DNA of 49,224 nt, from positions 1 to 49,224 of the forward strand of contig JANXSX010000178.1 in the NCBI GenBank assembly GCA_025356475.1, written 5' to 3'. A program made the position numbers and the translations under genes. Of the stretch, positions 25,754 to 49,224 are shown piece after piece. Under the pieces are notes generated by a model. It was not told the origin of the DNA and did not search any database. It saw only the letters and a program-made list of their open reading frames with translations. Within the stretch, counting starts at the first letter, position 1; every line of letters begins with the position of its first letter. Source of the DNA: Isosphaeraceae bacterium (GTDB lineage Bacteria > Planctomycetota > Planctomycetia > Isosphaerales > Isosphaeraceae).

Positions 25754-25820
25754 GCGCAAAATCATGAATGCCGGGGCCTATCTTCCGAATCACTTATAGG
25801 TCCAAGTGGGTGTTCCCCCC

Positions 25821-27335
25821 ATGGTCCATCCGGACAGCGAGTCAACCATGCTGGGACAATGGCGAATGGTCTTACGACAAGCGGAAGAAGCGGCCCGCGC
25901 AGGTCGTTATGACGAGGCACTGTTGCTGGCGAGTCGGCCCGACGTGGCTGATCACCATCATGCCGTGCGGCTCCGTTCGCGATTGGCGTTGGACCTGGTG
26001 AGCCGGGCCTCACGGCGTGGCGAAGCCGACGATCTCAACGGCGCGATCGACGACCTCGATCTTGCCGAACGACTCGGGGCTGCCCCCGATGTCCTGGCTG
26101 CCGCTCGTCTCAACTTGGGCGATCGTGTCGCAGGGGAAGTCAAACAGAGCCTCGAAGTTGGCGATCCCGACCGGGTCGTTGAACGCGTTGAGGCTCTCGC
26201 CAAACATAAGATCGGCGGGCCTACTCTCCGCCGTATCCGAGACGCTGCCGAGGCCTGGAGTCTCGCGATTTGCGAGGCACGTCGTGGTGAATTTGGCCGG
26301 GCGCATCAGGCGCTCGATCGGGCAGATTTGCTCGCGGCTGGACTCGCGGTGATAGCTCTGACGGCACTTCGCAGTGAGCTGGAGGCGCGCCGGAAGGGCG
26401 TCGCTCCGCGAATTGAAGCACTCTACGCGATTCTGAGTGATGGACAGTGGGGGCCGATTTTGAGCGCGGCCGATGCCGTTCTCGAACTGGTCCCCGAACA
26501 TCCCGCCGCTCGACAGGCTCGTCAGCGGGCCTGGCAGCAGATCGCTGCGATCGGTCCTGGCGCTATGGCCTGGCCGGATCGCGGCAGTCGGTTCGCCAAA
26601 GTTTCGATCGAAAATAGAGTCGCTGCCGTAGAGAAGGATAACAAGTTCCGCGTTGCCCCGAGCCCGAAGGCGAGGCCAGTGGTGGCAGATGCCATATTGA
26701 CGACTCCCACCGCGAAAGCGATTCAGCCGAGTTCCGAGAGCCGGTGTCTGCTTTGGGTGGATACCGTCGGTGGATACCTCGTCTGTTTCGACCCAACGAT
26801 CATTCTTGGTCGAGCGGGTGTGGATAGCCCTGCCGACGTCCCGCTCCTGGGCGATGTTTCTCGTCAACACGCAACTCTGACCAGGGAGGGCGACGGCTAC
26901 CTTCTCCGGGCCAACCATCCGACATTCGTCAACGGGCGTCAGGTGGATGCGACTTCGCTGCGGGATGGTGATGTCATCCGACTTGGCTCATCTCTTGAGA
27001 TGGAGTTCCGTCAACCTAGCCCCGTGAGCGCGACCGCTCGGCTATCGATTGTGAGCCGACATCGCATGCCCTTGGCGGTTGACAGCATCATTTTGATGGC
27101 AGAGACCTGCATTTTGGGCTCGAACTCACAAGCACACATCCCAATCTCGAACCTCTCCGATGCCATGGTGCTCTATCGCCAAGGGACAACCCTCTGGTGC
27201 CGATCCTCTGGGCGGTTTGAGGTTGATGGCAAGCCCGTTTCAGGACGGGCCCCATTGAGCTTAAAGTCGAGCGTGCTCGGCGACGGGGTCTCGTTCAGTC
27301 TCGAGCCGCTTGGCACCGGTTCCCGAACCATTTGA
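25821..27335 (+). CDS. FHA-domain protein with helical N-terminal repeats
   Basis: A protein of about 504 residues. The N-terminal half (about 1-230) is alpha-helical and Ala/Arg/Leu-rich, in a TPR-like pattern (EEAARAGRYDEALLLASRPD, later GEFGRAHQALDRADLLAAGL). The FHA domain lies at about 320-400, with the phosphothreonine-binding signature GRAGVDSPADVPLLGDVSRQ, then HATLTREGDGYLLRANHPTF and VNG: the GR...SRxH...N...NG residues are all present. After it comes a second beta-rich segment (ETCILGSNSQAHIPISNLSD) that looks like a degenerate FHA-type repeat. FHA domains bind phosphothreonine, and the gene directly precedes a Ser/Thr kinase, so a kinase partner is plausible. The start is uncertain between ATG 25806 and 25821; neither has a strong ribosome-binding site. 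Confidence 0.8.
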   Translation: MVHPDSESTMLGQWRMVLRQAEEAARAGRYDEALLLASRPDVADHHHAVRLRSRLALDLVSRASRRGEADDLNGAIDDLDLAERLGAAPDVLAAARLNLGDRVAGEVKQSLEVGDPDRVVERVEALAKHKIGGPTLRRIRDAAEAWSLAICEARRGEFGRAHQALDRADLLAAGLAVIALTALRSELEARRKGVAPRIEALYAILSDGQWGPILSAADAVLELVPEHPAARQARQRAWQQIAAIGPGAMAWPDRGSRFAKVSIENRVAAVEKDNKFRVAPSPKARPVVADAILTTPTAKAIQPSSESRCLLWVDTVGGYLVCFDPTIILGRAGVDSPADVPLLGDVSRQHATLTREGDGYLLRANHPTFVNGRQVDATSLRDGDVIRLGSSLEMEFRQPSPVSATARLSIVSRHRMPLAVDSIILMAETCILGSNSQAHIPISNLSDAMVLYRQGTTLWCRSSGRFEVDGKPVSGRAPLSLKSSVLGDGVSFSLEPLGTGSRTI

Positions 27336-27485
27336 GATCTCTGTGGATCGAAATCGCCAAATAACCGTGGAATGAAGACGAATCTCAGAGCATGATGGGG
27401 AGGTAAGTCACGTGTTGTTTCTCATCTCTCCGACACGCGACAGACCGAACCGACCGCAACCGGTTAGCTTTCTGGAGAGTTCTCG

Positions 27486-29357
27486 ATGAACGCGATGGCC
27501 CCGAAAATGCCTGACGCGGCGATGGACGAGACAGTCGCCCATCGCCCCAACGTCGTCGCCGGCCAAGGGCCAGCCGCAGTCGTCGGTGGAACTTTCAACC
27601 CGACGCGCGGTCCCCGGTATACCTTCGGCTCGGGTTCCCGTCCCTTGGATGGCTTTACGATCAAGCGAGCGATCGGTCGTGGTGGCTTCGGCGAGGTCTA
27701 TTACGCCACCAGCGATGCCGGTAAGGAAGTTGCGCTCAAGTTGATCGTCCGCGACGAGGAAATCGAGTGTCGCGGTGTCATCCAGTGTATGAACCTGAAA
27801 AGCCAGAACCTGATCGCCATCCATGACTTGAAGAAGACCGACGAGGGTGACACCTTCGTCATTATGGAGTTCATCGCCGGTCCGAGTCTCGCGCAGATTC
27901 TGGAAAAGTACCCCAAGGGAATGCCTTTGCCCGAGGTGCGTGCCTGGCTGAAAGGCCTGGTCGACGGGGTCGAGTACCTTCACGATCACGGGATCGTTCA
28001 TCGTGACCTCAAGCCCGCGAACCTCTTCCTGGAAGAGGGAGTCGTCAAAATTGGCGACTACGGCCTCTCGAAGCTCATCACGGCGAGCGCTGGCAATGGT
28101 CAATCGGCGAGTGTCGGCACTTGTCACTATATGGCACCAGAGATCGGCACAGGCAAGTATAACAAGCCTATCGATATCTATGCCTTGGGAGTTGTCCTGT
28201 TCGAGATGCTGACCGGGCATGTTCCCTTCGATGGCGAGTCTGCTCAGGAGGTGCTCATGAAGCACTTGACTGCCCAGCCCGATCTTTCCGCGTTGCCCGA
28301 GCCTTATCGCTCGATCGTTAAGAAGGCGATGTCCAAAAAGCCCGATGATCGCCAATCGCGAGCCTCGGAGTTGCTGGGTCTTGAGGCACCTGCTCCTCCA
28401 GAGATGCGGATCATCGGCGACAACAATCCCTACATTCCGCTCCAGCAAGCCGGGCCAAAGCCCCCATTGAAACCCGCCGAGGACATCCTCCTGATCGGTC
28501 CTGAGGAAGAGGTCTTCTACATCGGCCCTGAGACACGCCCCGCCCGCCCGAAACGAGGGTTGGCCGGTTGGCTTGGCCGACAGAATCGAGTGGCCAATCT
28601 TCCTCGAGTGGCACCAGGTCGCACGGCTCCAGCGCGCCCTCAAGTTCAACCGGTCGTGAAACGGGTGGCTGTGCCTCCGCCGCGTCCAATCACTCCCCCC
28701 GAGCCTCCCCCGCTGCCGAGCCCTCGGATACGGGTGGCGGAACTTGCCACCTCCATGCTCTGGGCGACCCCCGTGGTCGGTCTTTTTGGCATGGTTGCGT
28801 CGACTGCATACGGCGACGACATCATGGCTCAGCCCCAGCTCTTGGCGTTACTTGTTGGGGTTACACTCCTGAGTACCTGGGGCACTCTCGCGACCGGGAA
28901 GATGTTCGACGGTCGGCAGAGCGATTTGATGACACGTCGGATTGTCTTCCTGGTCCTCGGAACGATCCTTGGAGGTCTCGGCTACCTCCTTGCCGACTGG
29001 ACCCAGACTGGGCCCTCATCTGCCCAGGTGAAGCCCTTTCATATCCTGATCGAGGATGGGTATGATTTCGCATTCCGACTTCCAAATCTGTTTCAAATCC
29101 TGTCCTTTTTTGGGCTCTCATTTTTCGCCCTGAACTGGTCGGCCCTTACAGCTCGGGACCGTAAGAAGCGATTCAGGTTCTGGCCTGTGATGTTGGCGGG
29201 ACTGCTTGGGGCTGTGTTGTCCCCCATGTTCTGGCCGATGGACCGTCCTTGGGGCGTTGGAGTTTTGGTTTTGACCGCGATCGCCGTCCAGCTTTCTAGC
29301 CCGTGGAGCGAGGCCGCCGCAAAGTATGCCGCATGGCGACCCCGCCGGGTCGCTTGA
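27486..29357 (+). CDS. Ser/Thr protein kinase with C-terminal membrane helices
   Basis: A 623-residue protein. Kinase domain at about 55-320: glycine loop GRGGFG (64-69), Lys85 in VALK, catalytic loop HRDLKPAN (172-179, Asp174), metal motif DYG (191-193, in place of the usual DFG), activation segment ending MAPEI. A proline-rich linker (about 390-420, VAVPPPRPITPPEPPPLPSP) leads to several hydrophobic segments in the last 200 residues (for example SMLWATPVVGLFGMVAS and MTRRIVFLVLGTILGGLGYL), so the kinase is membrane-bound with the catalytic part at the N-terminus in the cytoplasm. GGAG precedes the ATG. It follows the FHA gene by 150 bp and ends at a hairpin. It probably phosphorylates envelope or regulatory proteins, perhaps creating ligands for the FHA protein. 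Confidence 0.9.
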   Translation: MNAMAPKMPDAAMDETVAHRPNVVAGQGPAAVVGGTFNPTRGPRYTFGSGSRPLDGFTIKRAIGRGGFGEVYYATSDAGKEVALKLIVRDEEIECRGVIQCMNLKSQNLIAIHDLKKTDEGDTFVIMEFIAGPSLAQILEKYPKGMPLPEVRAWLKGLVDGVEYLHDHGIVHRDLKPANLFLEEGVVKIGDYGLSKLITASAGNGQSASVGTCHYMAPEIGTGKYNKPIDIYALGVVLFEMLTGHVPFDGESAQEVLMKHLTAQPDLSALPEPYRSIVKKAMSKKPDDRQSRASELLGLEAPAPPEMRIIGDNNPYIPLQQAGPKPPLKPAEDILLIGPEEEVFYIGPETRPARPKRGLAGWLGRQNRVANLPRVAPGRTAPARPQVQPVVKRVAVPPPRPITPPEPPPLPSPRIRVAELATSMLWATPVVGLFGMVASTAYGDDIMAQPQLLALLVGVTLLSTWGTLATGKMFDGRQSDLMTRRIVFLVLGTILGGLGYLLADWTQTGPSSAQVKPFHILIEDGYDFAFRLPNLFQILSFFGLSFFALNWSALTARDRKKRFRFWPVMLAGLLGAVLSPMFWPMDRPWGVGVLVLTAIAVQLSSPWSEAAAKYAAWRPRRVA

Positions 29358-29389
29358 CGGAGCACAGCAATACTGCTGCAGATTATCTG

Positions 29390-29432
29390 GGGCTCACGAT
29401 TCAAACCATGCAAGTGATTGAATCTTGAGCCC
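29390..29432 (+). terminator. Hairpin after the kinase gene
   Basis: GGGCTCACGATTCAA (29390-29404) and TTGAATCTTGAGCCC (29418-29432) pair over 15 bp with one mismatch and a 13-nt loop. The following sequence TTCGTGTT is only moderately T-rich. Confidence 0.6.
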
Positions 29433-29564
29433 TTCGTGTTCCTGCCGAACTGCTGTAGAACTGGGATTCTGGCCTTAATATCGGTCGACCCAAGACGAAT
29501 CACTAGTAACGAGTCCGAGCCAGGCCGACGTCTGGACGGGATGTGTGGAGGGATCGGAACGACC

Positions 29565-30308
29565 ATGAAACGTCTCGCGTTGATCATTGTGCTTGGTGTC
29601 GTGGCCGTGCAGTGGATTCACCACTCCGAACGCCGCGCGCATGTTCGTTCCCAGAACACGGTCGTGATTACCCCCAACAACTCGCGTGTCGAGTTCTCAA
29701 ACGAGGTCGACTCACGGATCGTCAGGGTCCAGTTCTCGGCCGATCCTGTTGCACCTCAGCCGCCGGAACCTCCCCGGGCTCCTGAGCCACCGAAGCCCCC
29801 GCGTAGAGGCAAGAAGGCGTCTCGATCCGTGCTCGCCCCGGTCGCCCCGGTCGTGAGTCACGAGGCGGTTGGACGTCTATCAGCCACCGAAGATCGAGCC
29901 AAGGCCGATGCCCTTCGCCAGCTCAAAGAGGATGTCACCAAATGGCTTGACAGGGATGTTCCTTCGGCCTGGGCCAATCTGGATTCAGAAGTCGGCAAAT
30001 TGCTCGTCGAGACGCGAGTTGTTCCGCTCGAACGCGACTATGCCACCGTGTATAAGGCGACTATCGAGGCCAATTTCTCGTCCGAGCGCCGCGCAGCGAT
30101 CATTGCAAGGTATCAACATGAAATTGTCATGACCCGTCTTTTCAAGCTGGGATCAGGCGTTGGCTTTACCCTTGTCTGTCTAGCCAGCCTTGCTGGTTAC
30201 ATCAAGGCAGATGAGGCGACAAAGGGTTACTATACGAAACGGTTGAGGGTGGTCTCGGCGGCTGGGGTTGGTGCTGCGGGCGTTGCCCTTTATCACGCAC
30301 TGGTTTGA
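29565..30308 (+). CDS. Envelope protein with proline-rich linker and C-terminal helices
   Basis: A 247-residue protein starting at ATG 29565 (MKRLALIIVLGVVAVQWIHH), with GGAGG at 29547-29551. An N-terminal membrane segment is followed by a periplasmic-looking stretch, a proline-rich linker (PQPPEPPRAPEPPKPPRRGK at about residues 65-84), a helical domain of about 110 residues (KADALRQLKEDVTKWLDRDV), and two C-terminal hydrophobic segments (FKLGSGVGFTLVCLASLAGY and VVSAAGVGAAGVALYHAL). The helical domain may lie outside the cytoplasm between the anchors. I do not recognise the family. Its 3' end overlaps the next gene by about 40 bp, and the two downstream membrane genes follow on the same strand. 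Confidence 0.65.
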   Translation: MKRLALIIVLGVVAVQWIHHSERRAHVRSQNTVVITPNNSRVEFSNEVDSRIVRVQFSADPVAPQPPEPPRAPEPPKPPRRGKKASRSVLAPVAPVVSHEAVGRLSATEDRAKADALRQLKEDVTKWLDRDVPSAWANLDSEVGKLLVETRVVPLERDYATVYKATIEANFSSERRAAIIARYQHEIVMTRLFKLGSGVGFTLVCLASLAGYIKADEATKGYYTKRLRVVSAAGVGAAGVALYHALV

Positions 30309-30741
30309 ACGGGTTCGAGTCCAGAAAGTTGGCGATCTCGTGATAACGTGGCTGATCGCCTTTCTGGTCTTTAGTTTTTTGCTCGGATGGATCAATCGAC
30401 AGACCGCCCGCCCCTGGAAGTTAAGAGACTGGCGGATTCGTTTGATCCATCTTCAGATTCTGGTTGCAGGATGTGCCTATTTTCTGGCGATCGTCAAGGC
30501 GGGACGTGGTCAGGAAGGACTTCTGATAACGATCGCCGCGTTGTTCCTGGTCGGGCTCTTTCTTCGCGTCTGGGTCCGTGAGGTTCGCAGATTGATCGCT
30601 CTTTCTGACGATTCCTTTCGCGGTCGGTCTGGGCGAATCTACTGGGTGGTGATCTTGATCGTGTTCGCACCGATCGGGGTCTGGATGTTCCGCTCGTCCT
30701 ATCCCGCCGAGCTTCTCAGTGCGACTCATTCGCAGCAATGA
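30268..30741 (+). CDS. Small membrane protein, paralogue of the next gene
   Basis: A protein of up to 157 residues from GTG 30268, overlapping the preceding gene by 41 bp in another frame. A second in-frame GTG at 30340, directly before the first helix, is the alternative start. Four hydrophobic segments are visible. The C-terminal part, LSDDSFRGRSGRIYWVVILI then VFAPIGVWMFRS, aligns with LRDDAFQGHNDKLIWAILMI then VLPPVGVGVFRS in the next gene, so the two are tandem paralogues. The 'W...I...P.GV..FRS' pattern recalls small membrane modules such as PLDc_N, but the match is too weak for a family call. Confidence 0.6.
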   Translation: MVLRALPFITHWFERVRVQKVGDLVITWLIAFLVFSFLLGWINRQTARPWKLRDWRIRLIHLQILVAGCAYFLAIVKAGRGQEGLLITIAALFLVGLFLRVWVREVRRLIALSDDSFRGRSGRIYWVVILIVFAPIGVWMFRSSYPAELLSATHSQQ

Positions 30742-30762
30742 CCAGACTAGGGAGTCAAGTCC

Positions 30763-31143
30763 ATGTTCGAAACCATTTCTCATCGCTTCGAAGACTTTTT
30801 CGCCTGGGTACGTGTGACCCAGCCTTGGAAGTCCATGCTCCATGCGACTGGTTTTGTGTGCGTTTTGGCGCTCGCCATGACGCTCATTATCGAGACGTTT
30901 CCGTTCCTCCTAGTCGCTGGCCTTCTCGTGGGCCTATTTCTGCTCGCGACGAGTTGGCTCAAAGAGTTCCGATTCTTGATGAACTTGCGGGATGACGCCT
31001 TCCAAGGGCACAACGACAAGTTGATTTGGGCGATTCTCATGATCGTGCTTCCACCGGTCGGAGTCGGTGTGTTTCGTTCGTATCGATTGCAAAGATGGCC
31101 GGCAGCCAAGGTTCCTACATGTGCCGTCGGTGACTTGTCGTGA
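30763..31143 (+). CDS. Small membrane protein, paralogue of the preceding gene
   Basis: A 126-residue protein (MFETISHRFEDFFAWVRVTQ). It has helices at about 27-44, 46-65 and 87-106, and the conserved ending LRDDAFQGHNDKLIWAILMI, then VLPPVGVGVFRS. It shares this C-terminal half with the preceding protein, including the acidic pair and the P-x-GVxxFRS signature. The start ATG has GGAG about 12 nt upstream (30749-30752). It is separated by 21 bp from the preceding gene, so they are likely co-transcribed. Function unknown. Confidence 0.65.
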   Translation: MFETISHRFEDFFAWVRVTQPWKSMLHATGFVCVLALAMTLIIETFPFLLVAGLLVGLFLLATSWLKEFRFLMNLRDDAFQGHNDKLIWAILMIVLPPVGVGVFRSYRLQRWPAAKVPTCAVGDLS

Positions 31144-31266
31144 TCCGTTGATTTATATATGGAGGGGTGGGCAACCGATCGGCGGCGTGGGTACAATCTT
31201 GGACTGTGACGTTAGCACTTTCAGACCTGAGTCCACTTTTACGAACCGGCAGGTCGAGCTTCTCCG

Positions 31267-31896
31267 ATGGCCAATACCGACGCCGAAATTCTCCTGATTC
31301 GCCAAGTCCGTAGTGGCGATGCGCCCGCGTGGCGTCTGCTGGTCGAGCGTTATGAAGGGCGATTGACCGCGTTTGTCGACAGTCGGCTTCGCGATCGACC
31401 TGCAAGCGAAGACGTCGTCCAGGAGACCTTCATCGGGTTCCTGACAAGTCTCCCGCATTACGATGAGAATCGTGATCTCGAAGCCTATCTCTTCTCGATT
31501 GCTGCGCACAAACTGACCGATCACCTTCGCAAGCAAGGCCGGCGACCGATCGATCAATTGGGTTCTGATGGCAACGGTCGTCCTCTTGATGAGGTGCCGG
31601 GCGATATCCGAGCCGCCTCATCGATTGCGCGGAGCGATGAGCAACGATTGGCTGAAGAACGCCTCTTGGCCGAGTCGATCACCCAACTGATCGACGAGTG
31701 GCGAGATAAGGGGGACTTTACCCGGTTGAAGTGTCTTGAGCTCTTGATTGTTAAGGGAGCCGCCAACAAAGATGTGGCTCGCAACTTGGGGCTCAGCGAA
31801 CAGGCCGTCGCCAGTTACAAGTTTCAGACGATCGCTCGCATGAAGGAAATGGCCCGTCGCGCAGGGCTCTCCCTCAGCAGTTGGGGCCAAAGTTGA
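31267..31896 (+). CDS. ECF-type RNA polymerase sigma factor
   Basis: A 209-residue sigma factor. Region 2 is at about 18-95 (RLLVERYEGRLTAFVDSRLR, then DRPASEDVVQETFIGFL, with the usual D-x-VQETF core-binding helix). Region 4 is at about 145-200, with the helix-turn-helix NKDVARNLGLSEQAVASYKF. The linker between them is long and charged (SDGNGRPLDEVPGDIRAASS). It is a planctomycete ECF sigma factor directing RNA polymerase to specific promoters, the signal being unknown. It is followed 43 bp later by a zinc-finger protein that is the likely anti-sigma partner, and convergently by a Ser/Thr kinase, an arrangement seen for kinase-linked ECF groups. The GAGC before the ATG is a weak ribosome-binding site. 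Confidence 0.88.
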   Translation: MANTDAEILLIRQVRSGDAPAWRLLVERYEGRLTAFVDSRLRDRPASEDVVQETFIGFLTSLPHYDENRDLEAYLFSIAAHKLTDHLRKQGRRPIDQLGSDGNGRPLDEVPGDIRAASSIARSDEQRLAEERLLAESITQLIDEWRDKGDFTRLKCLELLIVKGAANKDVARNLGLSEQAVASYKFQTIARMKEMARRAGLSLSSWGQS

Positions 31897-31939
31897 TGCG
31901 AACACATGTCCTTGTCCGAGCTTACTTGTGGAGCTTTCG

Positions 31940-32368
31940 ATGAGTCGGCACCCGATCGACGATGAGACGCTAATCGCCTATCTTGCCGACGCTCTGCCGG
32001 GCGAGGACCTGGCTCGGGTCGAGAAGGCGTTGCGCGAAAGTGCTGAACTCCGGGACCAGCTTGAACAGGTTCGAGACGGTCGGCAGGATTCCAACTTGCA
32101 CACGCTAGGCGCGATCTGGAGACGTGGGCGTCTCACATGTGCCACACGTCAGCAGTTAGGGAGTTATTTACTCGACGCTCTTGACCCCGAGATTGCGTCC
32201 TACATCACGTTTCACGTCGATGTCATTGAGTGCGTCTTCTGCAGAGCAAATCTCGACGATCTCCGGAGCAAGGCTGCGGCTGCCACTTCCTACTCGACGG
32301 CGCGACACAATCGGATCATCCAGTCGAGCCGACACTTATTGCCCGAGGAACCGAATCCTCGCAAGTAG
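31940..32368 (+). CDS. Probable zinc-finger anti-sigma factor
   Basis: A 142-residue soluble protein starting MSRHPIDDETLIAYLADALP at ATG 31940, with GGAG at 31930-31933. The N-terminal helix pattern 'DDETLxAYLxDxLPxExxxxVExxLRxS' is typical of planctomycete anti-sigma N-termini. The middle contains TFHVDVIECVFCRANLDDLR, a zinc-binding-type H-x5-C-x2-C, versus H-x3-C-x2-C in the classical ZAS motif. No membrane segment is present, so any signal would be cytoplasmic. It is directly downstream of the ECF sigma gene, which strongly suggests that it binds and restrains that sigma factor. Confidence 0.7.
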   Translation: MSRHPIDDETLIAYLADALPGEDLARVEKALRESAELRDQLEQVRDGRQDSNLHTLGAIWRRGRLTCATRQQLGSYLLDALDPEIASYITFHVDVIECVFCRANLDDLRSKAAAATSYSTARHNRIIQSSRHLLPEEPNPRK

Positions 32369-32399
32369 GCGACGTGCCTTAGGGCAGCCGGAATCTCAC

Positions 32400-34985
32400 T
32401 CACTTTTGGGTGCCCGCACCGACTTGGAGCGGGTCTGCCCCGGCGATCTTTGCGACTTCATCAGAAAGCCCAAAGTCTCTAGGCATGGGGCGGTCGGTCA
32501 ACTGTTCGATTGGAGTTGCGAACTCCAGTTTGATCATCGCCGCATTCTTGTCGTTGTTTTCTGCGACACGACTATTCCACGCTTCGAGAGTTGAAAGCGT
32601 GGGGTCGGGGGCGACGGCTCCACCCAGAGCCGAGAGCACAACAAATGGTTCTTTGTCAGCGATCTCGTAACGGTTATCTTCGCCAATCCAATGCAAGCTG
32701 CTTGTGAAATTCAACTTCGCGGGAGGTGGCGGCCAGCCCAGCATCGCATTTGCTCGAATCGCGGTCTGTGCCATCTCGACGCGAAGTGGGCGCCAGGCGG
32801 TCAGGCCCTTAGCCGAGATATCGATCGCACCGGCCATGTTGATGGTGCATCGCTTGAAACGGACGACAGGGTCCTGCGGTTTAGCACCTTTAGCGACAGC
32901 ACCTGCCGCTTTGACCTCCGCGAGGACCGCCCAACCCGCCAATTGGCCGAACTGACTCGCGTTTACAAAGGTGGTTTGTTCAAGGTCGAGCGTGCTGTTC
33001 GCGGTCGCAAGGAACTCGATTGCACGACCGAAGCCGTTGAAGAAGCAACCTCGGATTGTCGTTTGTCGTCCTTCCACGTGAATCGCCCGACCTTCCTCTC
33101 CGGCGCTCTTGGTGTGGAAACTGCATGATTCGACAGTGATCCGGTCGCTCGCCCAGATTAACGCGGGAAGACGAACGGTGTCCGAGTACTTGACATGAAT
33201 CGTCAGGCCACGAAGGGTCACCGGGGCACCGGACCTCGTAAGAAGCCAGGGGACCTGCCCCTTCAGCTCGACTTCGAGGACCGGAGTCGCCCCCTCCCCA
33301 GCGCGAATTGTCAGAGGCCTTCCCGAGATTTCGATCGACTTTGCGTCCGAAATCTTGATCGGAATGGAATTGGTCAGCACAACTTCACCGCCACGCGCCA
33401 ACGCCACTTGAACCGCTTCGCGAAACGTCGAGACCGATCGCGGCCCCTCCCCCTTCGCGTAGACCGTGATCCCGGTGTCTGTACCCTTCCCCGCTTCAGT
33501 CCCCTTACCTTTCCCCGAGTCAAAACTCTCTTGAGTTTTGCTCTTTGAGACTTCTCCGGCATTCGACCCTTTCGCCGGAACAATCTCCACCAGGCTCGGA
33601 CGGGCTCGCATCCACAGTCCTGCACCAGTCAGGACGGTGCTTAATCCGGCCACCAGGCCAACCGCGAGCCATTTCCGAGTCTGATTTTGGCCATTCCCGA
33701 CGGCTACGGCCGGTTTCGGCCTGGGTTTTGAAGTGAGGCCGGTCACCAGTGGACCATCGAGTCCGAGGTCGATCGGAGGTAGGGCCACGAAGGGGTCTGG
33801 TTTGGAGCCCGACCCTACATGGTCTGGGGCAGGTGTGTTCGATGGTGACGTGGCCGAGTTCCCTGCTGGAAGCATCATCGGCAGTGCGGGAAGTGGCTTT
33901 GTATCATCTTCCGGTGATCGCCCCGACTTCGTGTGCGGATACCTCCTAGGAATCGGTGTGGCGTCATCACCGATGAAGGGTTCAAGGGCGTTTGCCACCG
34001 CGAGCGGGGTCTGAAACCGGTCAGCAGGGAGTTTCTTCATCATCCTTCGAACGATCAGGTCGAGCGAAGGAGGGATGCTCGACACAATGTCCGTCAGTGG
34101 AACAGGGTCTTGCAGTTGATGGGCGTAAAGCTTCTCGGGCAGGCTAGAGTAGGGAAACGGAACCTGCGCAGTGAGCATGTGATAGAGCGTACAGCCCAGC
34201 GAATAGACGTCACTGCGGGTGTCGACCCCATGCGAGTTGCGGGCCTGTTCCGGAGAGACATAATCAAATGTGCCAACCGTAGCCCCGTCGCGAGTGACAT
34301 CGGCGCTATCCGCCAGGTCAATCGCCAATCCCAGGTCGGTCAGCTTCGCGGTCCCGTCAAATGTGACCAAGATATTCGATGGGTTGACATCGCGATGGAT
34401 CAGCCCTTTCTGGTTGGCATGTTCCAGCCCGAGTGCGACCTGACGCGCTAATTTTGAGGCCAGCATCGGAGGCATCGGCCCCCCCTCACCGATCACCTTG
34501 GCGAGGTTTTTGCCATTAATATGCTCCATGACGAGGAAGGGTAAACCCCCCGCATTACCCTCGTCGTAGATCCGAACGAGGTTCTCGTGCTGGAGCTGGG
34601 CACCGACCTTCGCCTCTCGTTTGAAGCGGGCGATCGCTCGAGGATTGTTCATTCGCTCAGGAGAAAGAACCTTCAGAGCAACATTTCGATTTAGCCTGGT
34701 GTCCTTTGCGAGATAGACCCGGCCCATCCCCCCCTGCCCGATTCGATCCAAAAGGATATACTTATCGATCTTATATCCTGAGCTTTTCCCAGCCAGCAGT
34801 TGTTGAGCCTGCCAGAGGGTCAGTTTATTGTCCGTGACGGCCTGGCGTGCGAGCCGACGATCGATCGCGTCGGCGGTCCGCTTTTCTTCCGGGAGTGCAT
34901 CCCAGCACGTCCTGAGGTCTTTTTCAGAAATCAAGCCAGATTGTAGTCCGACATGCCAAAATCGCGACGAGCTCGGCTCAAGCAT
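32400..34985 (-). CDS. Ser/Thr protein kinase with transmembrane helix and large ectodomain
   Basis: An 861-residue protein. N-terminal helical segment (1-70, LISEKDLRTCWDALPEEKRT) of the kind found before planctomycete kinases. Kinase domain about 75-335: GQGGMG (83-88), Lys105 in VALK, HRDVNPSN (197-204, Asp199; Asn replaces the usual Lys of HRDLKPxN), DLG (217-219), and VSPEQARNS. A linker leads to a transmembrane helix at about 435-457 (WLAVGLVAGLSTVLTGAGLW). The outside part is about 400 residues: a basic/glycine linker, then beta-strand-rich repeats (VTLRGLTIHVKYSDTVRLPA, then VESCSFHTKSAGEEGRAIHV) resembling a right-handed beta-helix. It is a receptor-like kinase that may sense an extracellular ligand. 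It is convergent with the sigma/anti-sigma pair. Confidence 0.9.
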   Translation of the reverse strand: MLEPSSSRFWHVGLQSGLISEKDLRTCWDALPEEKRTADAIDRRLARQAVTDNKLTLWQAQQLLAGKSSGYKIDKYILLDRIGQGGMGRVYLAKDTRLNRNVALKVLSPERMNNPRAIARFKREAKVGAQLQHENLVRIYDEGNAGGLPFLVMEHINGKNLAKVIGEGGPMPPMLASKLARQVALGLEHANQKGLIHRDVNPSNILVTFDGTAKLTDLGLAIDLADSADVTRDGATVGTFDYVSPEQARNSHGVDTRSDVYSLGCTLYHMLTAQVPFPYSSLPEKLYAHQLQDPVPLTDIVSSIPPSLDLIVRRMMKKLPADRFQTPLAVANALEPFIGDDATPIPRRYPHTKSGRSPEDDTKPLPALPMMLPAGNSATSPSNTPAPDHVGSGSKPDPFVALPPIDLGLDGPLVTGLTSKPRPKPAVAVGNGQNQTRKWLAVGLVAGLSTVLTGAGLWMRARPSLVEIVPAKGSNAGEVSKSKTQESFDSGKGKGTEAGKGTDTGITVYAKGEGPRSVSTFREAVQVALARGGEVVLTNSIPIKISDAKSIEISGRPLTIRAGEGATPVLEVELKGQVPWLLTRSGAPVTLRGLTIHVKYSDTVRLPALIWASDRITVESCSFHTKSAGEEGRAIHVEGRQTTIRGCFFNGFGRAIEFLATANSTLDLEQTTFVNASQFGQLAGWAVLAEVKAAGAVAKGAKPQDPVVRFKRCTINMAGAIDISAKGLTAWRPLRVEMAQTAIRANAMLGWPPPPAKLNFTSSLHWIGEDNRYEIADKEPFVVLSALGGAVAPDPTLSTLEAWNSRVAENNDKNAAMIKLEFATPIEQLTDRPMPRDFGLSDEVAKIAGADPLQVGAGTQK

Positions 34986-35038
34986 GGATGCTCCCGCCAG
35001 ATCTTTTTACGTCCAATTGGATCCTATCGATCGCGATA

Positions 35039-43199: not shown

Positions 43200-44069
43200 T
43201 CATAGTGAAGGGTCGCGAAGTGCTCCCTGGATAGATTGGACCGGAACCTTCGCAAACAATACGTCGATCGCTTCCCGGGCTTCCTTCGACACCGCCAGCT
43301 TGACGAGGTACTGGATCGCCAGTTCCTCAGAGCCAGGGGTGTTGGAATTGAGGTTTTGTTCCAGAACAAGGCCGATCGCGTGGCTTGCAGCTCCTTCACC
43401 GAATTCATGCAGATGCAAAAGATCTATCGATCTGGGTGGCCAATCCAGGTTTCGGGAAACGGGTGGAAAAAAATCACATAGCTCAATATCTCCACTTGCA
43501 ATTCCATCGGCTAGCCCCGAGGTGAGGCTTTCCTGGGCATTCATCAACTTGGCGGTCAAAAGCATCTGGATCCCACGCTCGAGCCCGACTCGTCGGCAGA
43601 TGCGACCGATCCCTCCCCATCCGGGGATCAGGCCCAGCTTGATCTCGGGGAGGCCGAGTTGGGTATGGGGGAGGTTGATCGCAATGATCGAGTCGCACGA
43701 CATCGCCAGCTCAAGTCCTCCTCCCAGGCAGGTTCCATGAACCAGAGCAACTGTGGGGATCGTGAGCTCGGACAGGTGAGTAAACGCCCTTCGGCCCTTT
43801 CGGAGTAGGACCTCGACCTCTTGGTCACGCTGGCAGTTGCGAATCGCCTTCAGGTCCGCACCCGCGCAGAATCCCTTCGGTTTTGAGCTTCGAACGATCA
43901 GGCCGCGTAGTCCCCCCGACCACTGTTCAATCTCGGTCACCCGCTCGTCGAGTTCGTCCAGGGTAGGCCCATCAAGGGAATTTTGCGACGAGCCGGGCCG
44001 GTTGAACCACAGAGTTGCAAGCCCATCAGGGTGGGTTTCGATTCGCCAAGCATGCGGGAGGATTGACAT
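43200..44069 (-). CDS. Enoyl-CoA hydratase/isomerase family protein
   Basis: A 289-residue crotonase-fold enzyme. The start at the ATG complementary to 44067-44069 (MSILPHAWRIETHPDGLATL) matches the usual N-terminus of this family; the frame remains open upstream through a transposase remnant. The CoA-binding/oxyanion motif GFCAGADLKAI is followed by GTCLGGGLELAMSCDS, with the first catalytic Glu (in LELA), and GLPEIKLGLIPGWGG, with the second catalytic Glu. Both glutamates are kept, so hydratase activity on 2-enoyl-CoA is likely. The sequence resembles the N-terminal half of FadJ-like multifunctional enzymes, but it stands alone here. An acyl-CoA dehydrogenase gene 1.4 kb away could serve the same beta-oxidation pathway. 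Confidence 0.85.
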   Translation of the reverse strand: MSILPHAWRIETHPDGLATLWFNRPGSSQNSLDGPTLDELDERVTEIEQWSGGLRGLIVRSSKPKGFCAGADLKAIRNCQRDQEVEVLLRKGRRAFTHLSELTIPTVALVHGTCLGGGLELAMSCDSIIAINLPHTQLGLPEIKLGLIPGWGGIGRICRRVGLERGIQMLLTAKLMNAQESLTSGLADGIASGDIELCDFFPPVSRNLDWPPRSIDLLHLHEFGEGAASHAIGLVLEQNLNSNTPGSEELAIQYLVKLAVSKEAREAIDVLFAKVPVQSIQGALRDPSL

Positions 44070-44489
44070 CGTTTGTACCTGTCTGAGGGGGCCCCATTCG
44101 AAATTGGCACTTATGCGGTCGACCAGTACTTGTCCCAGTCTGTCGCGTGCCCGAGGCGGATTAGTTCCACCATCGGCCCGATGCGGTCGGTTTTCCATCG
44201 AGCACCAGTTTTGCTTGATCCGACGGCTCACAAGTTGTTTGATCGTTCCCTCGATCAATCCTGAGCCTATCGATGCGCGGCGGCGGAGTCGAGCTGCATC
44301 CATTATGCGGTCTTGAGGACCCGACAGGTAGTTCACTACCCGAGTGTAGGCCGCCTCCAGCGCCGCAGAATTGCTCAACTTGACTGTACTCCGATGTGCG
44401 AATTCGCAGACTCCCGTCCAACCATCGGCCACCAGTGCGTGTTGGGCTTGATCGATCCGCTTCTGCACCGCTTTTGTGTCCGTGCCCAA
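44070..44489 (-). pseudogene. 3' remnant of a transposase gene, in frame with the enoyl-CoA hydratase gene
   Basis: The minus-strand frame upstream of the hydratase start reads TDTKAVQKRIDQAQHALVAD ... AAYTRVVNYLSGPQDRIMDA then ARLRRRASIGSGLIEGTIKQ and LVSRRIKQNWCSMENRPHRA. The 'xGSGxxExxxKxxVxxRxK..g..W' pattern marks the C-terminal part of an IS transposase of the ISKra4/ISLre2 kind. The N-terminal portion and any upstream start are missing (a TAA lies at 44535-44537), and the element's own stop is also gone, so the frame runs on into the hydratase. Edges are approximate; no terminal inverted repeats could be identified. Confidence 0.65.
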
Positions 44490-44737: not shown

Positions 44738-45001
44738 ATGACGACTATGAACATTTCTCTCTCAGATGAAATGAAGGCGTTCATCGAAACACAGGTGTCG
44801 CAGGACGGCTTTGCGTCCGCGAGTGAATATTTGCGTTGCCTGATCCGCGATGCTCAGAAACGCCAGGCCAAGCAGGCACTGGAATCCAAATTCCGTGAAG
44901 CATTGGAAAGTGGCCCCGCCACACCGATGACGCGGAAAGATTGGGATTCGATTGAGCAGGAAGCGATGAAGCGTTGGACGAACGAACAACCAAGCCAATG
45001 A
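44738..45001 (+). CDS. parD: ParD-like antitoxin
   Basis: An 87-residue type II antitoxin. The N-terminal ribbon-helix-helix part, MTTMNISLSDEMKAFIETQV then SQDGFASASEYLRCLIRDAQ, is the standard ParD pattern (NISLxxxxxxFIxxQVxxGxYxSxSEYxRxLI), and the acidic C-terminus would bind ParE. A perfect AGGAGG at 44723-44728 lies 9 nt before ATG 44738. The last bases overlap the parE start (ATGA), so toxin and antitoxin were translated together. ParD represses its own operon and neutralises ParE. The toxin gene is broken, so this antitoxin may now be orphan or act on a related toxin elsewhere. Confidence 0.88.
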   Translation: MTTMNISLSDEMKAFIETQVSQDGFASASEYLRCLIRDAQKRQAKQALESKFREALESGPATPMTRKDWDSIEQEAMKRWTNEQPSQ

Positions 45002-45354
45002 GCATTCTCGAAAAGCGACTCTCGGCACGTAGTGATCTCGTTGACATCTTCTTCTACTACTTACGTGAGGGTAGTTTTCCGACGGCCCAGCGTTTTCTTG
45101 CCCAGGTTGAATCCACTTTTCAGCAATGAGCTGACATCCCCGGGCTCGGCACACGTTAGGAACCGTATGAACCGCTCTATGCCGAGTTGCGATTCTTTCC
45201 GGTTTCCCGTTTTCGGGTCTATCTCGTGTTCTACCGTCTGATCCCAGGCGGTATTGAGGTGTTCCGTGTGCTACACGGTGCACGCGATATGGATGGCATT
45301 TTGGCCGGGGACTTTGGCATCGGCGTGGATTCTGAGGCGGAAACCGATGAGTAA
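44998..45354 (+). pseudogene. parE: ParE-like toxin gene with two in-frame stops
   Basis: ATG 44998 overlaps the parD stop. The frame reads MSILEKRLSARSDLVDIFFY then YLREGSFPTAQRFLAQVEST and FQQ, then meets TGA at 45127-45129. It continues ADIPGLGTR, meets TAG at 45157-45159, and runs on as EPYEPLYAELRFFPVSRFRV then YLVFYRLIPGGIEVFRVLHG and ARDMDGILAGDF to a TAA at 45352-45354. Both halves are in the same frame and match ParE (RelE/ParE fold), including the 'FRVYLVFYRxxxxGIEVxRVLHGARD' strand pair. So only two nonsense mutations separate this from a normal toxin of about 118 residues. Truncation at residue 43 should abolish activity. Confidence 0.8.
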
Positions 45355-45518
45355 GATCTGGACACCACCCTTTTCGCGATAGACCGCAATGATTGTGGGT
45401 CGGACCTGTCTAAGGCAACTAGCCCTAGGGGTGGCTGACGGATAGACTTCAACGTATCCCTTCGCTTCTCCCCGGTCGATCAGTGCGACGATCGACTGAC
45501 ATCATCGGAGGTCCGGTC

Positions 45519-47312
45519 ATGTCCACCGCCGCGCCGGTTCGTCCCGTAGTTTCCGAATCCGATCGTCTGGCTGAACGCGATAAACAGATGAAGCAGGCGG
45601 AGGAACTTCTCTTCTCCGAACCATCGCGAGCCGGATTCGTGAAGGCGCTCTATCGCGGCGAGTTTCGTGGAGGAGCCATCTTTCCGTATCCTGAGCTTTC
45701 TACAGAGGATGCGGTGACGGTCCAGGCTGCGGAAGCCCAGGTTCGGCACTTCGCAGAGACGGAGATCGATGCGGAAGCGATCGATCGTCAGGCGGAGATT
45801 CCCCGATCCGTGATCGATGGCCTGGCTCGCCTCGGAGTCCTGGGGATGACGGCCCCGGTGGAATACGGCGGGCGTGGGTTCTCGCAACTGGGCTACTGCC
45901 GGATCATGGAGATCCTTGGTGGACATTGTGCGTCGACAGGAGTCTTTGTCAACGCGCACCACTCGATCGGGATCCGAGCCTTGGTCCTGTTTGGAACGAC
46001 CGAGCAGAAGGCACGTTGGCTGCCGATGCTGACGAAAGCAGAGAAACTCGCGGCGTTCGCACTGACCGAGGCTGAAGCGGGGTCAGACGCATCGAACGTC
46101 CAGACGGTTGCGACTCCAAGCGAGGATGGTCAGACGTTCATTCTCAATGGAACCAAGCGCTGGATCACCAATGGAGGGATCGCCGACGTCTTAACCGTGA
46201 TGGCTCGGACCCCTGACCCCAACGGAGGTGATTCGAAGATCACCGCCTTCCTCGTCACTCCAGATCTCCCCGGTTTTGAGGTCGTCGAGTCGCACATGGC
46301 AAAGTGCGGGATCCGTGGGACGGCGACCGGACGGTTGGCGTTTCACGACATGCCCGTTCCCGCCGCCAACATCCTTGGGCCGCGAGGCAAGGGGCTCAAG
46401 GTTGCCCTGACCGTCCTGGACTTCGGAAGAACCACGTTTGGCGCGAGCTGTACCGGGGTTGCCAAGCGCTGTCTCGCGGCGGCGGTCGCTCACGCGAACC
46501 GGCGGAAGCAGTTTGGTCGGACCTTGGGCGAGATCGAACTCGTCCAGAAGAAGATTGCCTACCTGGCCGCGACCGCCTACGCAATGGAGGCGACCACCTA
46601 TGAGACTGCCGCCTTGATCGATCGAGGGGCGGAGGACTACATGCTCGAAACCGCAATCCTCAAAGTGTTTGCGACCGAAATGCTCTGGAATGGCGTCTAC
46701 GAGACGATGCAGATTTATGGCGGCAAAGGCTACTTCTTGGACGAACCTTACGAACGATGGATGCGGGACGCTCGGATCAACACCATTGGCGAGGGATCCA
46801 ACGAGGTCCTCAAAGCCTTCATCGCCCTCGTCGGGATGCGCGATACCGGCGAAGGTTTCCGGACGACGCTTGAAGGACTCAAGAAACCAACCCGTTTTGT
46901 CCCAACCCTATTCGGGTTCGGTCGTGATCACCTTGCCCACTTCTTGAGTAGTCCCCAGGCTCCAGAGGTCATGTCGTCACTGGTCGGACCTCGCGATGCT
47001 CTCCTCAAACGCGTCAAGACATTCGGCTGGATGGTCGAGAAGCAACTGATCCGCCACCGCGAAGCCCTCCTCGAGATGCAGTACATCCAGGAGCGAATTG
47101 CAGACGCCGCGATCGCAATGTACACCGCCTCATGCACTCTTGCTCGATTGGATGCCCAGCTCCGTGCAGGAAAGCTGCCCCCCGCAGATCAGGCGGCAGC
47201 GTTGCATTACCTGAACATGGCAAATCGGACATTTGACCAATCGCTTCACGGCCTCCGCCACAACGACGATGCCAGTTCCAAAGCTGCCGCGATCGCAGCG
47301 TTGGGAAGTTGA
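45519..47312 (+). CDS. Acyl-CoA dehydrogenase (VLCAD/ACAD9-like, C-terminally extended)
   Basis: A 597-residue enzyme. The start at ATG 45519 (MSTAAPVRPVVSESDRLAER) follows GGAGG at 45508-45512. The core has the FAD/substrate signature AFALTEAEAGSDASNVQT, then ILNGTKRWITNGGIADVLTV, the RKQFGRTLGEIELVQKKIAY helix, and the catalytic Glu in RINTIGEGSNEVLKAF. Beyond the usual 380-residue core there is an extra C-terminal helical domain of about 170 residues, as in very-long-chain acyl-CoA dehydrogenases. It oxidises acyl-CoA to trans-2-enoyl-CoA, passing electrons to ETF. The enoyl-CoA hydratase-like gene nearby would act next, although it is on the other strand. Confidence 0.92.
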   Translation: MSTAAPVRPVVSESDRLAERDKQMKQAEELLFSEPSRAGFVKALYRGEFRGGAIFPYPELSTEDAVTVQAAEAQVRHFAETEIDAEAIDRQAEIPRSVIDGLARLGVLGMTAPVEYGGRGFSQLGYCRIMEILGGHCASTGVFVNAHHSIGIRALVLFGTTEQKARWLPMLTKAEKLAAFALTEAEAGSDASNVQTVATPSEDGQTFILNGTKRWITNGGIADVLTVMARTPDPNGGDSKITAFLVTPDLPGFEVVESHMAKCGIRGTATGRLAFHDMPVPAANILGPRGKGLKVALTVLDFGRTTFGASCTGVAKRCLAAAVAHANRRKQFGRTLGEIELVQKKIAYLAATAYAMEATTYETAALIDRGAEDYMLETAILKVFATEMLWNGVYETMQIYGGKGYFLDEPYERWMRDARINTIGEGSNEVLKAFIALVGMRDTGEGFRTTLEGLKKPTRFVPTLFGFGRDHLAHFLSSPQAPEVMSSLVGPRDALLKRVKTFGWMVEKQLIRHREALLEMQYIQERIADAAIAMYTASCTLARLDAQLRAGKLPPADQAAALHYLNMANRTFDQSLHGLRHNDDASSKAAAIAALGS

Positions 47313-47534: not shown

Positions 47535-49037
47535 ATGGCACAACAAATACGACTCCTCTGTCTGAACTGTTTGAAGAGTGTTGAGACCAGTATTGAAGTC
47601 GGTGGTCAAGTGACTCCGGCCCATTGTCCGTATTGTAAAGGGATACTGGGCAACTATCCGTTCGAGGAGACTGCCGAGCAAGGTTCTGAAGATGCTCCGA
47701 CCTTCGAGATCAATCTTGAACCGGACTCCGCAACGTCGTGGAGCAAGGTCTGGCAGGAAGGCACGATCGGCAAGCTCGGTCGATTTCAGCTCCGGGAAAT
47801 CCTCGGGGAGGGGGGCTTCGGGACAGTCTATAAGGCCCACGACCCGAGGCTCGATCGTGATGTCGCTCTCAAGACGCTCAAGCCGAACAAGATGACCGAA
47901 CAGGGCATGGGTCGGTTCTTCCGTGAGGCAAGAACCGCCGCCAGGCTCGATCACCCTCGCATCGTCAAGGCCTTGGATGCCGGTCGGGACGAACAAGGCT
48001 GTTGGATCGCCTTCCAATTCATTCCGGGAATGACACTCTCAACTCATGTCGCCCAGAATACGCTCAATGTCCGTTCTGGGGTCCGAATGATTCGCGATCT
48101 CGCCGACACAATGCAGTACTGCCACGACCAGAAGGTCATCCACAGGGACCTGAAACCCTCAAACATTCTGCTCGACGACAAGGGTAACCCCTGGCTGATC
48201 GATTTTGGGCTTGCCCGCTGGAACGATCATAACAGCGATCTGACACTCGAAAAAAGTATTATTGGTTCTTATAATTACATGTCACCAGAGGTCATGGCAG
48301 GTAATAGCAGACAGGCCGATGCGCGTTCGGACGTGTATAGTCTCGCTGCGATCTTGTTTGAATTGATCTGTCATGAGCACCCGATCCAGCTCCCTATCGG
48401 TGTCCCGCTCAACAAGGTCGATACCTCCAAGCCGCCGCCTTCACTGAGGGAGTTCAACACCAAAGCGCCCCATGTGCTAGAACAGATCTGCTCGAAGGCA
48501 CTTCAGCCAATGCCCATCAAACGTTATCAAGACATGAAATCATTTCGTGATGACCTCGATCGATGGCTCGAGCACAAGGCGATGGTGGGTCGGATTGGCT
48601 CGGTCGCCGCCATCTTCTTGATCGGGACGATCTTAGGGCTAACGATCCCCGTCGCAATCAATCTGGGGCGGGACCCGGTTCTCGCCGTTAAGCCGGTTGA
48701 GAAAACGGACCAGCCAGCTCAGGCTCCTGGCGGGTTCAAGCTACCTTTGGGCGCGGTCGAGGAAACCAAGAAGACGACCCACACCGATCAAGCGGTCGCT
48801 GCGGAAAGCTCCGAAAAGTCTCCGATCGAGCCACCTCTGGGTGCTGGAAGCCGCGAACCTCATGCTCCGCCTGAGGTGATGCTCGTGCTGAACACTGCGA
48901 GCAACAAGATTCACGCGGAGGGTTGTCGCGATATACCGAAAGTCCTATCAAACAACTGGATGAAGGTGAGCGCTTCGTCTGAGTGGGCGAGAGGTCGGGC
49001 ACTCTGTGCTCACTGCTACCCCAAGATCCCCCTGTAA
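47535..49037 (+). CDS. Ser/Thr protein kinase with N-terminal zinc ribbon and C-terminal Cys/His domain
   Basis: A 500-residue protein. Residues 9-34 form a zinc ribbon (CLNC at 9-12, CPYC at 31-34). Kinase domain about 84-345: GEGGFG (91-96), Lys113, HRDLKPSN (203-210, Asp205), DFG (223-225) and MSPEV. A single transmembrane helix follows at about 357-377 (SVAAIFLIGTILGLTIPVAI), then a low-complexity stretch. The last 50 residues are MLVLNTASNKIHAEGCRDIP ... GRALCAHCYPKIPL. The 'N....K.H...C......N.........G...C..C.P' pattern resembles the small Cys/His domain attached to some thermonuclease- or Ada-type proteins. That domain would be outside the cytoplasm and could sense metal or redox state. 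No strong ribosome-binding site is visible before the ATG. Confidence 0.85.
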   Translation: MAQQIRLLCLNCLKSVETSIEVGGQVTPAHCPYCKGILGNYPFEETAEQGSEDAPTFEINLEPDSATSWSKVWQEGTIGKLGRFQLREILGEGGFGTVYKAHDPRLDRDVALKTLKPNKMTEQGMGRFFREARTAARLDHPRIVKALDAGRDEQGCWIAFQFIPGMTLSTHVAQNTLNVRSGVRMIRDLADTMQYCHDQKVIHRDLKPSNILLDDKGNPWLIDFGLARWNDHNSDLTLEKSIIGSYNYMSPEVMAGNSRQADARSDVYSLAAILFELICHEHPIQLPIGVPLNKVDTSKPPPSLREFNTKAPHVLEQICSKALQPMPIKRYQDMKSFRDDLDRWLEHKAMVGRIGSVAAIFLIGTILGLTIPVAINLGRDPVLAVKPVEKTDQPAQAPGGFKLPLGAVEETKKTTHTDQAVAAESSEKSPIEPPLGAGSREPHAPPEVMLVLNTASNKIHAEGCRDIPKVLSNNWMKVSASSEWARGRALCAHCYPKIPL

Positions 49038-49163
49038 GCACGCCTCGAATGAAGATTCGATGGCTCATGTCCCTGGTTCGGTGGTTGGCCATTTCAGACC
49101 ACGTTTCTTTCTGGTCTTTTAGGAGTCTGGACTCTCGATGGCCCACCTCACTGAGACATTTCC

Positions 49164-49224
49164 ATGGATTTCCCGATTATTGACCTGATGGATCAAACGA
49201 CCTGCTACCAGAAGCTCATGGACC
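49164..49224 (+). CDS. Start of a further gene, cut by the window edge; possibly a transposase
   Basis: ATG 49164 opens MDFPIIDLMDQTTCYQKLMD, open to the edge. The phrase 'FPIxDLMDxxxCYxxLxxxLHPxGLxCPRC' occurs at the N-terminus of some planctomycete IS transposases with a zinc ribbon, so a transposase is a reasonable guess. Only 20 residues are visible, so this is uncertain. Confidence 0.35.
   Translation, partial: MDFPIIDLMDQTTCYQKLMD

Follow-up and report, generated by a model that had tools for sequence, protein, structure and literature searches.

The end of the window, the whole 49,224-nucleotide stretch of Isosphaeraceae DNA that was analysed, raises the question of what a planctomycete membrane kinase senses and to which partner it signals. 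An open reading frame with an ATG start (47535-49037, + strand) encodes a Hanks-type transmembrane Ser/Thr kinase of 500 residues. Two Cys pairs, C9/C12 and C31/C34, precede the kinase domain in a zinc-ribbon-like and presumably cytoplasmic N-terminus (CxxC...CxxC, C9-C34; 47559..47636, +), assigned from Cys conservation together with weak matches to generic zinc ribbons and to the rubredoxin domain of PknG. The kinase domain (residues ~80-347; 47772..48575, +) was recognised from Pfam, invariant columns and fold matches. Pkinase PF00069 covers residues 85-291 with an E value of 9.4e-47, the top fold matches are the kinase-domain structures of M. tuberculosis PknB, and the catalytic residues K113, E131, HRD-K-N (203-210) and DFG (223-225) are present. 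A membrane helix, identified by hydropathy and flanking charge (residues 357-375; 48603..48659, +), is the sole hydrophobic segment of the protein, with a mean hydropathy of 2.46. It is followed by a variable linker of low conservation (residues 378-446; 48666..48872, +) and by a C-terminal module, predicted to be extracytoplasmic, that is Ada-like by profile and Pfam matches, with a modest fold match (48873..49034, +) and carries the motif H460, C464, C491-x2-C494. An earlier sequence-only reading of this DNA had described a CxxC...CxxC, a kinase, a single helix and an H...C...C-x2-C end, and all of these were located in the one frame. Two further Ser/Thr kinases are encoded in the window, at 27486-29357 and 32400-34985, near an FHA-domain protein at 25806-27335 (window 25806-35000).

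Forty-five genomes of the family to which the window belongs were searched for orthologues. Thirty loci were obtained, of which 27 are orthologues that cover the full length, from the zinc ribbon through the kinase to the tail; L037, L038 and L039 were excluded as other or truncated kinases. At the threshold used, 18 of the 45 genomes gave no full-length orthologue. Summed over the 27 proteins, the 15 residues flanking the helix hold 116 Lys/Arg before it vs 61 after it. The excess lies before the helix in 23 orthologues and after it in none, the two sides being equal in four, and the kinase is therefore placed inside and the Ada-like module outside. Three orthologues (L031, L032, L035) have no segment above a mean hydropathy of 1.6. 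The full-length predicted model of the window kinase has a mean pLDDT of 76.4; pLDDT falls below 50 over residues 380-443, where the linker is predicted to be disordered, and the C-terminal module is confident at about 81-92. The architecture that these data support well is that of a single-pass protein with a predicted cytoplasmic zinc ribbon and kinase and an Ada-derived His-Cys3 module outside.

Among the 27 orthologues, K113, H203-R204-D205, D223-F224-G225 and the glycines G91, G93 and G96 are invariant in the alignment. A lack of Cys/His conservation among orthologous kinases had been named beforehand as the outcome that would speak against the proposed sites; instead, C9, C12, C31, C34 and H460 are each present in 27/27, C491 in 26/27, and C464 and C494 in 25/27 each, a second alignment differing slightly. 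The mean frequency of the top residue is 0.18 in the linker (378-446) and 0.38 in the module overall. As the presumed ligand residues are kept while the linker and the rest of the module vary, the Cys/His pattern is evidently not due to chance. The complete motif H-x3-C-x(22-30)-C-x2-C occurs in 23 orthologues, including the long-tailed L032, and is incomplete in four (L016, L026, L033, L036). On inspection by eye, the loss in L016 resembles a late frameshift relative to its near-twin L018.

Taken by itself, the module of the window protein matched nothing in Pfam or NCBIfam and no PDB sequence convincingly, and its kinship with Ada therefore rests on the orthologues. A profile was built from 22 modules (L016, L026, L033, L035 and L036 were omitted). 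It matched the E. coli Ada N-domain chains with E values of 4.8e-7 to 1.3e-6, the next match being at 0.73. In the opposite direction, Pfam Ada_Zn_binding (PF02805) matched 18 of the 22 modules at E<=1, with a best value of 6.7e-10, and the module of L029 scored 37.1 bits against a cut-off of 23. The structural match is modest. A separate model of the window module (pLDDT 81.8) was compared with 17 chains only, of which four reached Z>=2, all of them Ada (best 1u8b, Z 5.2, rmsd 2.2 over 49 aligned residues); a Foldseek search with the same model gave a weak match, E 1.1. The likeness to Ada-type proteins put forward in the sequence-only reading is thus borne out by a profile search with the C-terminal module, one of the checks it had proposed, which reached Ada through the orthologue profile and not through the window sequence alone.

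In the alignment with Ada, His460 falls on Cys38 and the three Cys of the module fall on Cys42, Cys69 and Cys72, a numbering of the ligands consistent with a figure legend in PMC10814553. The same review (PMC10814553) describes Cys38 of Ada as a zinc ligand that also accepts the methyl group. The four-Cys ligand set of Ada is not found here: the first ligand position is His in 27/27 orthologues, giving His-Cys3, and the methyl-accepting Cys38 is absent from the module. Because His460 aligns with the methyl acceptor, the metal site has probably been kept and the repair chemistry lost. A working Ada-type domain for repair or sensing of methylphosphotriesters on the kinase is hence hardly credible: homology to N-Ada speaks for it, but the exchange at the Cys38 position in every orthologue and the predicted location of the module outside the cytoplasm speak against it, and methyl-transfer repair is largely refuted by the sequence itself. 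The replacement of Ada Cys38 by His, like the phoR-pst-phoB context described below, was missed in the sequence-only reading.

The module is not confined to kinases. Its profile matches 34 of the 45 family genomes, and 21 further places beyond the kinases were inspected. Eight are proteins of 500-660 residues that begin with a hydrophobic stretch and include a CxxCH part. Every one of them is of the His type, and PSCyt1 was confirmed by Pfam in all four that were scanned. These eight (L072-L076, L079, L084, L085) are apparently exported and run from a His-Cys3 Ada-like module through a planctomycete cytochrome C domain to an unassigned C-terminus. Six others are staphylococcal-nuclease-type proteins, mostly with a clear hydrophobic start and again all of the His type, with SNase confirmed by Pfam in 3/3 scanned. 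The motif had been likened beforehand to that on some thermonucleases, and exported thermonucleases of this family do carry a His-x3-Cys module. The nuclease modules (L077, L078, L080, L081, L082, L083) keep H-x3-C and have a single Cys in place of the terminal C-x2-C. Of the remaining places, a further protein and a fragment carry His, a second fragment carries Asp, and four are Ada-type proteins, all of the Cys type.

Outside the family, with up to 22 candidates scored per genome, matches were found in 42 of 264 genomes of the class (75 of 297 overall, 33 of them in the family). Nine places from eight of these outside genomes were inspected: six proteins with Cys, which we take to be Ada-type from inspection of their motifs, two membrane proteins, and the short L166. 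The two membrane proteins come from another family of the class. The small protein L161 (1075-1542, -) crosses the membrane once and ends in an Ada-like tail of the His type, and L162 (654-1340, +) combines a LuxR-type HTH and a membrane helix with an Ada-like tail that is degenerate. No kinase was present among these nine places, inspected out of the matches in the 42 outside genomes. A scan of genome contigs recovered only one distant kinase. The ectodomain, earlier judged uncommon for a bacterial kinase, was accordingly met on kinases only in the family of the window, within the searches made. Among the proteins inspected, His appears to track exported or membrane-anchored proteins and Cys to track cytosolic, repair-type proteins.

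Gene neighbourhoods were compared with the cluster of G004 as the query. In that cluster, PstS, PstC, PstA and PstB score above the NCBIfam cut-offs, and PhoB and PhoR/PnpS below them. For 12 of the 27 orthologues (G004, G007, G011, G013, G016, G018, G019, G020, G021, G022, G023, G044), the next gene downstream, on the same strand, encodes a PhoR-like kinase; in G022 about 1.2 kb separates the two. Wherever the contig extends, pstS-C-A-B and phoB follow downstream, with the exception of G007, in which PhoR alone was recovered. Several clusters have trxB on the far side of phoB. Two more cases, the genome of the window (G000) and G015, were counted as inferred linkage at contig ends. In G015 the kinase frame reaches the contig end and phoR runs from base 330 of another contig. 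The contig of the window (C29) stops 187 bp past the kinase, where it is broken by an insertion sequence that we take to be IS1595-like and that occurs in multiple copies; the left end of this element lies at 49062..49224 (+). Contig C101 of the same genome opens inside an insertion-sequence end and carries phoR from base 243, followed by a hydrolase gene, pstS, pstC, pstA, pstB, phoB and trxB, the names other than PhoR and PstS being given by resemblance to the G004 genes. A 12-bp inverted repeat is common to the window end and the first 140 bp of C101. The two insertion-sequence ends are flanked by GATTCGAT and GATTTGAT, and both ends are multi-copy in the genome. The phoR cluster was placed beside the window kinase because the insertion-sequence ends match, which suggests, across the contig gap, a single insertion between kinase and phoR.

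In 13 of the 27 orthologues (G001, G002, G006, G008, G014, G026-G032, G043) the kinase is not adjacent to phoR. When the region upstream of phoR was searched in the 20 genomes without known linkage, over about 5 kb in most and less in a few at contig ends, a kinase was met only in G008, 14 kb off. In the kinase-domain tree, in which the window kinase forms a long branch, the linked rows are spread throughout and the unlinked rows of g2 and g17 make up one clade of eight. The minimum number of changes is five, in a count that omits L032 and the three non-orthologues and scores both inferred cases as linked. Since linked rows occur across the whole tree and the unlinked ones partly form one clade, linkage to phoR-pstSCAB-phoB looks ancestral and repeatedly lost.

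On the other side of the kinase, an acyl-CoA dehydrogenase gene (45483..47312, +) is an upstream neighbour conserved in some relatives; it adjoins the kinase or is near it in G004, G014, G015, G018 and G019. Further upstream in the window, at 44738-45001 and 44974-45354, a ParD-type antitoxin (Pfam PF03693) is followed by ParE-like pieces in two frames. We take the two-frame pieces to be ParE, and the set is, to judge from its reading frames, a decayed toxin-antitoxin pair. In the enoyl-CoA hydratase frame at 43200-44489 (-), the ECH match is confined to residues 155-332, and the frame extends upstream by about 150 residues that look transposase-derived by eye.

A tentative reading, to which we give somewhat less than an even chance, is that the protein is an extracytoplasmic metal-site sensor kinase tuning PhoR/PhoB signalling. 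The His-Cys3 site would hold zinc, and a ligand or the state of the metal would alter the contacts or the dimerisation of the module. This change would switch the kinase, as ectodomains do in PASTA kinases, and the kinase would phosphorylate PhoR or PhoB, so that the expression of phosphate-starvation genes would be adjusted. Candidate signals are zinc, the redox state, phosphorus compounds and nucleic acid. For the last step, PknB acting on the PhoB-type regulator RegX3 in mycobacteria offers a precedent: a review (PMC12189002) indicates that M. tuberculosis PknB can downregulate SenX3/RegX3 signalling via phosphorylation of the response regulator. The conserved ligands, the Ada profile and Pfam matches, the topology, the exported His-type modules and the phoR linkage all favour the sensor-kinase reading. 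Counting against it are the lack of a convincing database match for the window module alone, the modest structural match of that module, the long branch of the window kinase and the four orthologues with an incomplete motif. Against the tuning of the Pho system stand the 13 unlinked orthologues and the 18 genomes that have no full-length orthologue though phoR is present in 43/45. Since phoR is this widespread and 18/45 genomes gave no full-length orthologue at the threshold used, the kinase is dispensable for the Pho system. PhoU is the usual partner of PhoR; the kinase as a replacement for PhoU was considered and ruled out, PhoU being present in 45/45 genomes.

The same absence of linkage in 13 orthologues would be expected if the module were a zinc knob serving structure, dimerisation or anchoring in the envelope, on a kinase with a general envelope role, and if the pho genes nearby reflected an inherited order with no functional tie, and the conservation of little besides the ligands and a few other residues within the module also points that way. 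This explanation is nevertheless unlikely, though to be taken seriously, as the linkage is maintained in many genera and across the tree, always on the same strand, and the order apparently survives an insertion between kinase and phoR in the genome of the window. The Cys residues could instead make the protein a redox sensor, in which oxidation would strip the metal from His-Cys3 and form disulfides that switch the kinase, the zinc ribbon acting likewise inside. A redox role has been proposed for the rubredoxin domain of PknG, to which the zinc ribbon is weakly matched; Cys-rich sites are conserved at both membrane faces, and trxB lies past phoB in several clusters. The exchange of Cys for His, however, is a change of metal ligand and not of a thiol switch, and the site would be prone to breakage in an oxidising periplasm unless protected by metal, so that redox sensing is considered improbable. 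Distinctly improbable, in turn, is that the His-type module is an exported module for recognition of nucleic acids or phosphodiesters and that the kinase reports extracellular DNA to PhoR/PhoB. The module would then be a new use of a domain whose contacts are with the backbone phosphates of DNA, and it would hold nucleic acid for exported nucleases; if true, a membrane kinase sensing extracellular DNA as a phosphorus source would be coupled to phosphate acquisition.

Planctomycetes are already known to have membrane Ser/Thr kinases with varied ectodomains, as described in PMC11032199, the main text of which does not mention Ada save as a word start in a reference. No report of an Ada-like His-type kinase ectodomain with Pho linkage was found in the open-licence literature, nor anything relevant on the sunset domain, a weak NCBIfam match. 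The protein is a case of a DNA-repair metal domain re-used, by its predicted topology, outside the cell, with His as the ligand in place of the reactive Cys. Its gene order also links a Ser/Thr kinase with the classic two-component system for phosphate. Both features make it testable what the many membrane kinases of planctomycetes sense and which partners they signal to.

Among known systems, the N-terminal domain of Ada (PF02805; 1adn, 1eyf, 1u8b, 1zgw, 1wpk) is like the module in its near-full-length profile match and in the alignment of the three other ligands; the modelled module has a modest structural match to it (Z 5.2, Foldseek E 1.1). Unlike Ada, the module has His in place of Cys38 and no methyl acceptor, and it is predicted to be extracellular on a kinase without AraC-type or methyltransferase parts. 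The exported nuclease-type proteins of the family share the His-x3-Cys start of the module and the exported side; they have no kinase, and their module ends in one Cys where that of the window kinase ends in C-x2-C. The PASTA kinases PknB, Stk1 and PrkC are likewise single-pass Hanks kinases with an ectodomain, PknB being the closest kinase fold, but the window ectodomain is Ada-like and has no PASTA match in Pfam; NF033483 (NCBIfam) scores 241.5 vs a cut-off of 450 and matches residues 82-348 only. PknG also has a Cys4 metal-site domain ahead of a Hanks kinase, to judge from the weak match. It is soluble and has TPRs, whereas the window kinase is membrane-bound with an ectodomain. In the action of PknB on SenX3-RegX3, a Ser/Thr kinase likewise meets a phosphate two-component system; gene linkage is not mentioned for that pair in the passage of PMC12189002, whereas the gene of the window-type kinase precedes phoR.
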